Assembly: GCA_948434005.1 (NCBI GenBank)
Contig: CAOJEH010000004.1
Location: 1-64,000, forward strand
Direction: 5' to 3'
DNA: 64,000 nt
Source: an uncultured Mycoplasmatota bacterium
Lineage (GTDB): Bacteria > Bacillota_I > Bacilli_A > RF39 > UBA660
Both the position numbers and the translations under genes were made by a program. Shown here one piece after another: positions 14,639-30,531 of this stretch (position 1 is its first letter; every line of letters starts with the position of its first letter). The notes beneath the pieces were generated by a model, which saw only the letters and a program-made list of their open reading frames with translations, was not told where the DNA came from and searched no databases.

Positions 14639-14921
14639 ATTACTACTTGGACATCTTTGATATTATAATTATACATTTTTTTTAGAATTTTTAATAGTAT
14701 ATAAATATAAAAAATTATTTATATTTATTCTATAACTATATCAATTCATTAAGAACTTATTCTTGATATCAAAAACTTAGAAAATACTTTAATATCTTTA
14801 ATTAAATGGAGTTTAGAAAATGAAAAAATGGAATTAGACAGTATTTTCGTAATAATAAAGCTATTCTAAATTATTGGAGAATAGAAGAAGATATGATAAA
14901 ATATTTTTTAGTGGTGATATA
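14639..14921. other. intergenic region, divergent promoters and short coding-like remnant
   Basis: It separates the nitroreductase (minus) and DUF3800 (plus). A plus-strand frame of about 37 codons at roughly 14753-14870 (begins ELILDIKNLENTL) looks coding-like but has no start codon, so it may be a gene remnant. A TATGAT -10-like element lies about 20 nt before the DUF3800 start. Confidence 0.4.
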
Positions 14922-15761
14922 ATGAAGAAACAATATTTAATTTATGCAGATGAATCACATAGAAAAGGTAAATACTTTAGTAATTTTTATGGTGGTGCTT
15001 TAATTAATTATACTGAACTTGAAAAGATAAGTAATAAACTTAATGACAAAAAAGCAGAATTAGGTTTATTTCAAGAAGTTAAGTGGACAAAAGTAACTGA
15101 ACAATATTTTGATAAGTATCTAGAGTTAGTGGACTATTTTTTTGAGTTCGTTAAAGTTAATAAAATTAAGATAAGAATAATGTTTAGGCAAAATGCCCAA
15201 GTTCCTCAAAATTTGAATAGAGAACATGAAGAAAAAGAATATTTCCTTTTATATTATCAGTTTATTAAACATGCTTTTGGTATAGATTACTGTAATCCGA
15301 AAGAAAAAGATCAAGTAATATTAAAATTATATTTTGATAAATTACCTGATACTAAAAAGAAAAATAGAGAGTTTAAAGGTTATATTTATGCACTTAATGA
15401 TTTCTTTTGTATAAATAATGTTCATATTTATAATGAAGATATAGCAGAGGTAGATTCTAAAAATCATGTAATATTGCAATGTATGGATATTATATTAGGT
15501 GCTATGAATTTTAAACTAAATAATATGGATAAAGAAAAAATGCTGGGCAGTAATAAACGAGGCAAAAGAACTATTGCAAAAGAAAAACTATATAAAAATA
15601 TATTAAGAAATATTAAAACTATTTATCCTAATTTTAATATTGGTGTATCAACTAGCAGCCGTAGGGACTTTGTTAATAATTGGAAAGATCCTTATAGACA
15701 TTGGTGCTTTAAATCCAAAAATAGTATATTTGATTCATCATTAACTAAAAATTCAAAATAA
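14922..15761 (+). CDS. DUF3800 domain protein
   Basis: 279 residues. It begins MKKQYLIYADESHRKGKYFSNFYGGALI, the Y-x-DES opening of DUF3800, and carries conserved acidic residues further on (KLYFDKLPD, AEVDSKNHVILQCMDIILGAMNF). The family is thought to have an RNase H-like fold and is common near mobile elements and defence genes; its activity is not settled. I take the ATG at 14922 with GGTGATATA before it. It is followed by a hairpin-rich segment and a degraded integrase, consistent with a genomic island edge. Confidence 0.82.
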   Translation: MKKQYLIYADESHRKGKYFSNFYGGALINYTELEKISNKLNDKKAELGLFQEVKWTKVTEQYFDKYLELVDYFFEFVKVNKIKIRIMFRQNAQVPQNLNREHEEKEYFLLYYQFIKHAFGIDYCNPKEKDQVILKLYFDKLPDTKKKNREFKGYIYALNDFFCINNVHIYNEDIAEVDSKNHVILQCMDIILGAMNFKLNNMDKEKMLGSNKRGKRTIAKEKLYKNILRNIKTIYPNFNIGVSTSSRRDFVNNWKDPYRHWCFKSKNSIFDSSLTKNSK

Positions 15762-27323: not shown

Positions 27324-28034
27324 TTACTTTTTCCCATTAACTCTTTTTTCTACAAATTCGCTTAAACTATTTTCTTCTATTCCTGATAAAAAGTCTAACA
27401 CATCAGATTTATCACTATCTTTATATTCTCTACTAATTTGTCTACAGAAAGAGAAACTTTCTTCTGCATCAAAATCACTATATTTTACTAAATGATAATT
27501 TTTTATAACTTCATATATTAAAAATTCATTAAGTATATCGATATTAATTCCATAAGCCTGATTTTCATCAACACTAGAATCAATAAAATAACTACCTGGA
27601 TCAATTAGATACAATCCATTATTATAAACTGTATTTGCATGATTTAAATCTCCAAGTTGAACCTTATTGTCACTTAATAATTCAATATCATTCTTTAATG
27701 ATTTATGCTCTTCTACCAGTTGATCTTTATCTAAACCAAAATAACTATCCATATCTAAATCTTCAATATAATCCATTTGATAACCTCTGATGTTACGTTT
27801 TTTATCTAAAAGTGCATCGGTTGGAAGTAAAATCCTTTTTGTTTTAATCTTTTTCATCTTCTCAACTGATTCTTTAGTTATAATAATTTTCTTTTTAGGA
27901 TATTTATGAAAAAATTTAACTACTTTATCATTAATTTGATATGCCTCTACTTCATAACCATCACCCAAGTGTCTATCTTTTTTCATATTATATGGATTAT
28001 ATCTAACCTTTTTTCCATCTACTAAAAACTCCAT
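27324..28034 (-). CDS. atypical protein kinase-like fold protein
   Basis: 236 residues. The sequence VKFFHKYPKKK could hold the ATP-binding Lys, and VQLGDLNHANTVYNNGLYLIDPGSYF follows the catalytic pattern GDLN-x2-N...IDPG seen in RIO/APH-type kinases (Asp as base, Asn and Asp for metals). GDGYEVEAYQINDKVV at the start takes the place of the glycine loop. It sits between a membrane protein and a phosphoesterase gene. A kinase fold is inferred from these motifs; activity and target are unknown. Confidence 0.62.
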   Translation of the reverse strand: MEFLVDGKKVRYNPYNMKKDRHLGDGYEVEAYQINDKVVKFFHKYPKKKIIITKESVEKMKKIKTKRILLPTDALLDKKRNIRGYQMDYIEDLDMDSYFGLDKDQLVEEHKSLKNDIELLSDNKVQLGDLNHANTVYNNGLYLIDPGSYFIDSSVDENQAYGINIDILNEFLIYEVIKNYHLVKYSDFDAEESFSFCRQISREYKDSDKSDVLDFLSGIEENSLSEFVEKRVNGKK

Positions 28035-28045
28035 AATAAAACCAC

Positions 28046-28636
28046 CTATTTCTTTTTGTAAAAATAAGATACAAATTTTGAAAATTCATATAAAATAATA
28101 TCACATTTATTTACAGCAAAACTTTTACCTATAGCTTTACCACCTATTGTTAAACTAGCAACTACAGCAGTTGTTATAAGTGTCATTAAAAATATATTAA
28201 TTGAAGTAGCCTTAGATAGTAAAGTAGCAATAGTAACAGCAGTTGAACCAGAAATAACTCCACATATATCACCTACTACATCACAACAAAAGCTTGATAC
28301 TTTATCACTATTCTTTTTAAATATTACTGCAATATTAGCACCTCTAACTTTTCTAGAATTCATAGAGTGAAATACCTTAGGATCAGCAGTAGTTACACTA
28401 ACACCTATAATATCAAATAGTATACCTAATATAATAAATAACAATGTCACAACTATACCAATTCCTAAATTAAAATTAGGTACTGTAATTTCTGATACAA
28501 AAGATAGAGAAAAACTTATTGCAAAAGCTATAACAAATATTGTTAATACCCATTTTTTATCTACTAATTCTTTTTTTATTTTTTCTTTTCTTCTAGTTTG
28601 AACTTTTAAATTTTCTAAATCTTCATTCTTTTTCAT
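28046..28636 (-). CDS. four-helix membrane protein
   Basis: 196 residues. A charged N-terminus (about 1-28) is followed by membrane helices at about 28-48, 58-80, 115-150 and 150-170, and a short basic end (SYFYKKK). The glycine/alanine-rich third region (CGVISGSTAVTIATLLSKATS) may form a pore-like or packed hairpin. I do not recognise the family. It is the first gene of the cluster with the kinase-like protein and phosphoesterase, and it lies downstream of the large RNA. Confidence 0.62.
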   Translation of the reverse strand: MKKNEDLENLKVQTRRKEKIKKELVDKKWVLTIFVIAFAISFSLSFVSEITVPNFNLGIGIVVTLLFIILGILFDIIGVSVTTADPKVFHSMNSRKVRGANIAVIFKKNSDKVSSFCCDVVGDICGVISGSTAVTIATLLSKATSINIFLMTLITTAVVASLTIGGKAIGKSFAVNKCDIILYEFSKFVSYFYKKK

Positions 28637-28656
28637 ATATACCTCTCAAATTTTTG

Positions 28657-29251
28657 CAAAAAAAAATTAATGGCTGTAAAATGGTAAACTTTGAGTCTTA
28701 GGTCAAGTAGGATTTCCCCAACTTCTACTTATTCGTTACCAAATAAGCGGTTCCCCTTTAAAGAAGCTAGTGTGGTGTTGCCACATCACACGACTTGATT
28801 GCCACTTAGTACCCACTGCAATCCCAATTTAGCGCACTCTAGGAGATTTCCTCACCAGTTTTTATTACTAATTCTTTTTTGCAAAGATAATTTCATAGCG
28901 CAATTCTTATAAGTTCGGCCAAACGTATAAGAAAGATCACTAATCCCGATACCTTCACTCAAGACAAGCTACACTATACATAGCTTTCGCCACAATATAG
29001 GTTCAAATCCATATCGTAATAAGTCCGTCAGTAAAAATTACGTATAGGCTTACCACAAGTATGGGTCTCCACGGAAGTTGGGTCGTTTATCGTATGCCAT
29101 TACGAGCGCCCAAAATCCTTACCCCTCAGCATCCACCCCTCACTGGGCGTAAAAAGCAAACACCAAAGGTTTCACAGGTATGCTCTTTAACGGTTGTTTA
29201 ATCCCGTCTTCATAATAAAGTAACTGACTAGAATAATGTGCCATCAATTAC
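28657..29251 (-). ncRNA. large structured non-coding RNA (~590 nt), ROOL/GOLLD/OLE-like class
   Basis: No frame is open here and base composition is clearly richer in G+C than the genes around it. A consensus promoter (29259-29287) points into it. The first nucleotides AATTGATGGC (29240-29249) pair over 10 bp with GCCATTAATT (28665-28674), which is followed by a long T-run, so the ends close a terminal helix. Between them are many hairpins: CGCCCA/TGGGCG (29107-29149), CTTATA/TATAAG (28907-28932), AGCTA/TAGCT (about 28970-28989), GTGTG/CACAC (28771-28792), CTTATT/AATAAG (about 28730-28750). Size and shape resemble ROOL, GOLLD or OLE RNAs; I could not find RNase P, tmRNA or group I/II intron signatures. 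Identity is open. Confidence 0.8.
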
Positions 29252-29258
29252 AATATAA

Positions 29259-29287
29259 ATTATATCATAAATCAGTAAAAATGTCAA
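29259..29287 (-). promoter_or_regulatory. consensus promoter of the large RNA
   Basis: -35 TTGACA (29282-29287), exactly 17 nt, -10 TATAAT (29259-29264): a perfect sigma-A promoter, the strongest in the window, with the start expected near 29252. Confidence 0.9.
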
Positions 29288-29342
29288 GTTTACACTATAT
29301 TATATGCTATCAATATTTACTTTGTGATAATAATATTCTATA

Positions 29343-29372
29343 GAAAAAAGAAATACTTTTAATATTTCCTTT
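29343..29372 (-). terminator. terminator after the Prs-like gene
   Basis: The minus strand reads AAAGGAAATA-TTAAAAG-TATTTCTTT then TTT, separating the Prs-like gene from the RNA promoter. Confidence 0.75.
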
Positions 29373-29373
29373 T

Positions 29374-30531
29374 TTAACTACCCATATTTTTAGACTCTTG
29401 AAATTTCTTTTCTAATAATTTAATAGATGCTGATTTATCTTTTAGAGTATTAGAAATAGAATTATCATTATGAATATCATATACAACACTTGCTACTAAA
29501 TTTGAACAATCACAAATATTTAACCATTCCTTTTCTTTATACTCTTCGGGAATATAAGAAAGATTAGTTGTATATATACCACTTAACATACCTTTTTCAT
29601 AGTATTCATCAAATTTATCAATTCCTTTAGTAAATAAAGCATATGTTACAATTAAATAAATTTGTGATACATTTCTTTTGTGCAATTCTTCTATTACATC
29701 AAACATAGAACCACCGCTAGAAATCATATCATCAATGACAACAGCTGTTCTCCCTGATAAATCATCCTTACCACTATAGTCATGAGCAATTACTGGATAT
29801 TTTCCATCACTAAAATTATTATAATCTCGCATTTTAACAAAACTTCCAGCTTGTTTGTCTATACCATTATAGTTAAATGAATTTAAGTAAACATTTCTTC
29901 TTCCTGTTGCACCCGTGTCTGGAGCTATAAAAGCCATTCTTTGTAACTCACTAATATTAAGGTTATTAATAAATTGCTCTAATATCACATTAGTCGCATA
30001 AATATTTTCAAATTCCATATCAAAAACAGCTTGTTCAACACTTTGATCATGAACATCAAAAGTAATAAAAGATCTCATTTTTCTATTAATATCAATTTCA
30101 TGTAAGTTCTTTGAACCCATTAGATTTTCACGTGTGTTTTTTCTATGCTGTCTTCCTGCATATAATAACGGCATAACAATATTCAAACTAACTGGATGAT
30201 TACTACACGCTCCTAACCCATCTTTTAATTCCATCATTAAATCATTTGGACTTGTATGATTCTTAAAACCATGCATTGTATATTCTATAGAATAATTACC
30301 TATATCAGTTAATAAAAAGATATCTTTTCCCCTAATACTATCTTCAATTTCTACTTTTAAATGACCATCATCAAAGAAGTTTTCTTTGATAGGTACTATA
30401 AAGGTATATTTATCTTCATCAATTCCATATCTATTAAGTAGCCATTTATCTACTTGATTCCCTAAATCCCAAGCACTCTTAAATACTACTAATCTTAATT
30501 TATTATCTACTAAATCTTTTTTTACTTCCAT
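29374..30531 (-). CDS. ribose-phosphate pyrophosphokinase-like phosphoribosyltransferase
   Basis: 385 residues, about 70 longer than classical Prs. Prs features: EDSIRGKDIFLL, VIMPLLYAGRQHRK-like (here NIVMPLLYAGRQHRKNTRENL), TFDVHD, and the PRPP-binding loop VVIDDMISSGGSMFDV. Prs makes PRPP from ribose 5-phosphate and ATP for nucleotide synthesis. The enlarged version with an insert after the first strand block (NYSIEYTMHGFKNHTSP) is a known subgroup in Bacillota, from memory. The start is the ATG at 30531; a TTG two codons upstream is possible. Confidence 0.82.
   Translation of the reverse strand: MEVKKDLVDNKLRLVVFKSAWDLGNQVDKWLLNRYGIDEDKYTFIVPIKENFFDDGHLKVEIEDSIRGKDIFLLTDIGNYSIEYTMHGFKNHTSPNDLMMELKDGLGACSNHPVSLNIVMPLLYAGRQHRKNTRENLMGSKNLHEIDINRKMRSFITFDVHDQSVEQAVFDMEFENIYATNVILEQFINNLNISELQRMAFIAPDTGATGRRNVYLNSFNYNGIDKQAGSFVKMRDYNNFSDGKYPVIAHDYSGKDDLSGRTAVVIDDMISSGGSMFDVIEELHKRNVSQIYLIVTYALFTKGIDKFDEYYEKGMLSGIYTTNLSYIPEEYKEKEWLNICDCSNLVASVVYDIHNDNSISNTLKDKSASIKLLEKKFQESKNMGS

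Follow-up and report, generated by a model that had tools for sequence, protein, structure and literature searches.

When a large structured RNA is predicted in the genome of an uncultured bacterium, the first question is one of identity: does the RNA belong to one of the known families of giant bacterial RNAs or represent a class of its own, and, in the former case, which partners of that family accompany it? For the window considered here (the whole analysed stretch of 64,000 nucleotides), the original prediction was a structured RNA of about 590 nt, with ROOL, GOLLD and OLE as the candidate families and a new class as a further option. The shortlist held the right family: the Rfam model for OLE (RF01071) matches the minus strand over 607 nt (28654-29260) with 401.2 bits, as compared to a gathering score of 50, and the match (E = 2.2e-114 for the window in cmscan) is not truncated, covering positions 1-616 of the 616 in the model. 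The predicted structured RNA is, indeed, there, and only its strand and limits had to be redrawn. No Rfam family besides OLE was found at E <= 0.5 over the surrounding 1 kb (28500-29500), so that ROOL, GOLLD, RNase P, tmRNA and SRP were all rejected as identities, the last three in accordance with what had been read from the sequence by eye. The option of a new class, a giant structured RNA outside all known families, has nothing in its favor beyond the failure of that reading to recognize signatures, and is refuted by an end-to-end match that exceeds the gathering score eightfold, by the presence of nearly all OLE signature motifs and by the adjacent oapA gene; we consider its probability negligible. 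The window RNA is a complete, ordinary full-length OLE, a new member of a known family in a type of lineage already known for OLE, given that OLE and its shortened forms have been reported in uncultured gut lineages (PMC11332333). It is the only OLE copy in its genome (1.45 Mb, 96% complete).

The surroundings of the RNA (Table 1) bear out most of what had been proposed for its expression. The promoter agrees with the consensus at 12 of 12 positions, carries an extended -10 TG in addition, and is found at the same distance upstream in most OLE loci of relatives. The stretch lacks a coding frame as claimed, all its open reading frames being 46 amino acids or shorter, and its G+C content (~0.385) does exceed that of the flanks (roughly 0.24-0.29). 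Since the initial ~8 nt of the Rfam match overlap the -10 box, the transcript probably starts near 29252. At the other end, the predicted run of T residues next to the closing helix is present, and could mark the end of a processed or terminated RNA. No standard terminator hairpin was found between OLE and oapA in the window locus, so that read-through into oapA is likely, and the RNA, lying directly upstream of this gene, might be viewed as mainly a long 5' leader that regulates oapA in cis, not as a separate RNP. Several relatives, however, have a hairpin followed by a T-run between OLE and oapA; in the genome G011, the two are on different contigs and apparently unlinked (OLE at G011:C3:30733-31341, oapA at G011:C12:4924-5517); and OLE has been described as a stable RNP that acts in trans (PMC11332333, PMC12265935), which together make a cis-acting leader very improbable.

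Table 1. Positions of the features discussed; coordinates without a locus prefix are those of the window
Feature	Position	Strand	Basis
OLE RNA gene (RF01071), full length, P7 and P8 present	28654..29260	-	cmscan and pair covariation
Promoter: TTGACA (29282-29287), 17-nt spacer, extended -10 TG, TATAAT (29259-29264)	29259..29287	-	12/12 consensus
Closing helix, 5' arm (pairs with 28665-28674)	29240..29249	-	inner 4 pairs in 16/16; outer 6 variable
Closing helix, 3' arm	28665..28674	-	as for the 5' arm
Nine-T run after closing helix, possible RNA end	28658..28666	-	sequence
k-turn, 5' strand GCAUACC-UGU-GAAACC	29162..29183	-	conserved in full-length relatives; pairing rule from PMC9723947
k-turn, 3' strand, GUAAGG region, J5/6	29117..29124	-	pairing in relatives
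L9.3 loop with GGCC palindrome, UUUGGCCGAA	28914..28923	-	kissing-loop role from PMC12286853
Shine-Dalgarno-like GAGAGG of oapA	28642..28647	-	sequence
oapA, OLE-associated protein A homologue, 196 aa, membrane protein	28046..28636	-	ORF, alignment, OLE co-occurrence
Kinase-like ORF, 236 aa, directly after oapA	27324..28034	-	ORF; weak Bud32 match (E = 2.4e-4)
Short OLE	L037:1669-2046	+	promoter and adjacent oapA
Short OLE	L038:2016-2393	-	promoter and adjacent oapA
Short OLE	L039:1663-2043	+	promoter and adjacent oapA

Elsewhere in the window, two more structured RNA elements were recognized: a DUF3800-VIII RNA (RF03075, 15762-15829, minus strand, 56 bits vs 40.2), which stands head-on to a 295-aa ORF (14874-15761, plus strand), probably a DUF3800 protein, with tRNA-Gly and tRNA-Cys adjoining, and a T-box leader (RF00230, 7489-7678, minus strand, 111 bits).

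The structure of the RNA was assessed in an alignment of the window RNA with 15 full-length relatives from the host family (n=16), by scoring the pairs derived from the Rfam model together with the originally proposed closing helix (20 helices, 148 pairs). In the window RNA itself, 138 of the 150 model pairs that have bases on both sides are standard, as compared to an expectation of 41% from composition. The internal hairpins that had been proposed are upheld by the homologues: standard pairs fill 91.7% of the pair cells when the helices are tested jointly, compared with 39-45% when the partners are slid by 1-3 columns, a control that flatters this figure, the scored structure having been taken from a curated model and a single sequence. 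This bias does not touch the double changes: 93 of the 148 pairs show a double-sided change in at least one sequence, and none of 500 shuffles reached any of the five pairing measures. The folding energy is low relative to shuffled sequences as well (MFE z = -3.1).

The 10-bp helix proposed to join the two ends, which is unannotated in the Rfam OLE model, exists in the window RNA with one G-U pair, and stands in part as a feature of the family. Its inner four pairs (UGGC/GCCA) form in all 16 sequences, among which one double change (C-G to U-A) is seen, with further U-A pairs in the short forms described below; the outer six form in 56-88% of the 16 sequences, mainly in close relatives. The L9.3 loop carries the GGCC palindrome that serves as a kissing-loop dimer contact in OLE (PMC12286853), and the palindrome is kept in most full-length relatives. 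The other loop of interest, L4, is present with UUAAACAA, typical of the host genus, in place of CUAAAAAU. The L7 hairpin loop (29050 region, model 213-237) is 14 nt longer than in the Rfam consensus, owing to an insertion common to close relatives.

The neighboring gene encodes the membrane partner of OLE, and a homologue of it directly follows the RNA at most OLE loci of the family. The 196-aa protein, whose gene starts ~17 nt downstream of the end of the OLE model, aligns at 36-86% identity with 17 homologues, each adjoining an OLE RNA. Neither Pfam nor NCBIfam names it, and the protein itself has no match to the CNNM family (PF01595); an OLE-adjacent homologue in G033 exceeds the PF01595 cut-off (30.6 vs 28.4 bits), with seven others below it. 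Since OapA is a remote CNNM relative according to PMC11332333, this match of the OLE-adjacent homologues is the reason for naming the protein OapA. The kinase-like ORF begins 12 nt after oapA, contains the motifs LGDLNHANTVY ... LIDPGSY and is probably co-transcribed with oapA; its homologues follow oapA in several relatives (L003, L004, L008, L010, L025). Neither the OapA profile nor the kinase-like ORF matched a PDB sequence, and AlphaFold models of the two proteins are of low confidence (pLDDT 41 and 43, respectively).

The link between OLE and OapA extends over the host family. With a profile built from the OapA alignment, OapA was found in 25 of 25 OLE-positive family genomes and was missing in 11 of the 12 OLE-negative ones, which stayed negative for OLE when re-searched with laxer filters. 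The exception, G006 (66% complete), has its oapA so near a contig end (252 bp) that OLE would lie beyond it. Neither OLE nor true OapA was found in 23 genomes from other families of the class, the match in G056 being its CNNM protein. Thus, OLE and OapA were gained and lost together in the host family. On a wider sample, OLE is present in 129 of 193 family genomes and in 213 of 385 genomes of the order; the Rfam model gives 92 of the 129 a score above 310 bits, and about 30 are forms of ~480-520 nt that lack P7 and P8, i.e., the published variant 2. The genome G032 (4% contamination) contains two OLE copies, L004 (G032:C14) and L040 (G032:C3, at a contig end), of which the latter, truncated where the contig stops and degenerate at its 5' end, may be a pseudogene or a contaminant.

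Does a CNNM-type transporter take the place of OLE where the latter is missing? CNNM/MpfA (PF01595) is absent from the host genome and from all family genomes except the OLE-negative G023, and is present in most other families of the class. The lack of CNNM/MpfA in the host genome is in line with the published anticorrelation of OLE and MpfA. MpfA does not as a rule take over from OLE in the family, however, because 10 of the 11 family genomes lacking OLE and OapA also lack CNNM, G023 being the sole one that has it; in the host clade, one does not simply stand in for the other. In the ten genomes without OLE, OapA and CNNM/MpfA (G009, G014, G015, G017, G019, G022, G027, G029, G030 and G035), the role of the Mg2+ exporter, if needed, must be filled otherwise.

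The other two protein partners of OLE appear to be gone. OapC, a protein of the L7Ae family, recognizes the k-turn near P5 in Halalkalibacterium halodurans (PMC9723947). The L7Ae/OapC family (PF01248) is absent from the host genome and from 36 other members of the host family (37 of 37 searched), and is present in 21 of the 23 genomes from other families of the class. Among KOW proteins, the host genome has L24, a NusG-size protein and one weak match, and, in 40 genomes of the class, no OapB candidate could be separated from L24 and NusG by KOW matches. Elsewhere, OapB is usually encoded between map and infA; in the host genome, these two genes overlap with no gene between them. OapB thus appears to be absent from the host, as judged from a KOW search that had no OapB-specific model. 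OapB and OapC have already been reported as mostly absent in two gut clades, RF39 and TANB77 (PMC11332333), and the absence of OapC is no bar to OLE membership, since only ~45% of the published OLE-positive genomes carry OapC (PMC11332333).

With the L7Ae family missing from the genome and the host family, and with so little among the KOW proteins and at the map/infA junction that could be OapB, the window RNA could be seen as a decaying copy, non-functional in a reduced genome. This seems hardly probable in view of a perfect promoter and 138 intact model pairs, a congeneric RNA that is 96% identical with the pairing kept, the strong covariation in the family, and an oapA frame that is open and conserved. 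Despite the lack of OapC, the k-turn sequence is strongly conserved in the full-length relatives. The two C-helix pairs of the k-turn in the window RNA are both C-G, flanked by G-A/A-A; the closing pair is C-G in 13 of the 16 sequences, and the next pair is standard in 14 of the 16 (C-G in the window, U-A or U-G elsewhere). The k-turn pairs are standard in 84% of the cells, as compared to at most 56% in slid controls; their covariation across the 16 sequences did not exceed the shuffle control, so that we claim conservation alone for the k-turn. In H. halodurans, a U84C mutant with the equivalent C-G pair retained binding and function (PMC9723947). Beyond the published accounts that we found, the full-length OLEs of this clade retain the OapC k-turn sequence without any OapC, which fits the cryo-EM finding that the k-turn forms without protein (PMC12286853). 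In the ~495-nt OLE forms, inspected by eye, the closing pair of the k-turn is apparently lost.

Still shorter OLE RNAs, of 378-381 nt, occur in two genera of the host family (G150; G081 and G212; three genomes in all). They score 134-139 bits on the Rfam model, are 91-95% alike and are preceded by a TTGACA promoter in the customary position. In place of P5-P8 (model positions 74-277), these RNAs have ~20 nt that include a hairpin of 5-6 bp, so that the k-turn, the bS21 site and the L5-L7 dimer bridge are all missing; L4 (CUAAAAAU), P9 with a GAUC palindrome in the L9.3 loop, and P10-P14 are kept, and oapA starts 4-6 nt downstream (a G039-type start in L037-L039). A fourth candidate, in G363, was rejected because the copy is cut by a contig end. 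The lowest class of the published OLE survey is at 235 bits, so that forms of 134-139 bits would fall outside it, with the caveat that the survey scored on its own model, unlike the Rfam-model scores given here. No description of the 378-381-nt form was found in a literature search mostly confined to papers outside subscription, and the form is apparently undescribed. Taken together, these data make it slightly more probable than its opposite that, in this gut lineage, OapA is the only known partner of the OLE particle, the k-turn serves the RNA's own fold, and two genera have cut the RNA to a core of 378-381 nt; the proposed role of the k-turn follows from its being kept without any L7Ae-type protein. 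If so, the 378-381-nt form would set the lower limit of an OLE and reveal which functions can do without the large 5' domain. With its full-length, ~495-nt and ~380-nt versions, this OapC-less clade offers a natural deletion series from which the important parts of the RNA might be learned. OLE ranks among the best-conserved large RNAs of bacteria with an unsolved biochemical function, the model organism included.

For the window, the identity and structure of the RNA, its promoter and the oapA gene are established. How the particle might work can be envisaged by analogy with the OLE RNP, for which membrane location, protein partners, stress phenotypes and dimerization have been described (PMC11332333, PMC12265935, PMC9723947, PMC12286853). 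The RNA would be made from a strong housekeeping promoter, fold into the ornate OLE structure and, probably, dimerize via the L4 and L9.3 contacts; OapA, the product of the next gene, would hold it at the cell membrane. There, the particle would contribute to stress tolerance, above all upon changes in Mg2+, as OLE does in H. halodurans, where it has a role in stress and Mg2+ homeostasis (PMC11332333, PMC12265935). Perhaps, it controls or replaces a CNNM-type Mg2+ transporter, a possibility put forward because OapA is a remote CNNM relative and the host genome lacks CNNM/MpfA. Overall, a full-length OLE gene, whose product would probably dimerize, be anchored by OapA in the membrane and serve in stress and Mg2+ homeostasis, is, with high confidence, the best explanation of the locus.

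It remains to place the window RNA among known systems. ROOL and GOLLD are mainly phage and prophage RNAs. The window RNA has no Rfam match to either at E <= 0.5, and a phage origin was rejected since no similar DNA is present in 50,697 phage records. Like OLE, ROOL and GOLLD are large, ornate, RNA-only oligomers (PMC12286853). OLE variant 2 of the RF39 clade (PMC11332333) is closer: the host family also has forms of ~480-520 nt and shows the same loss of OapB and OapC, and the window RNA differs in being full length, with both P7 and P8 retained. The host itself may plausibly belong to the GTDB order RF39, in view of small genomes that come from gut or rumen. Compared to the OLEs of H. halodurans and Clostridium acetobutylicum, the window RNA has a shorter P11-like hairpin (model 423-435 deleted) and AT-rich stems, and its host is an uncultured gut relative of the Bacilli with a small genome, in which the OapC family is absent and OapB is probably absent too. 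In its architecture, motifs and size, in the k-turn sequence, in the GGCC loop and in the oapA gene that follows downstream, it resembles the OLEs of these two organisms.
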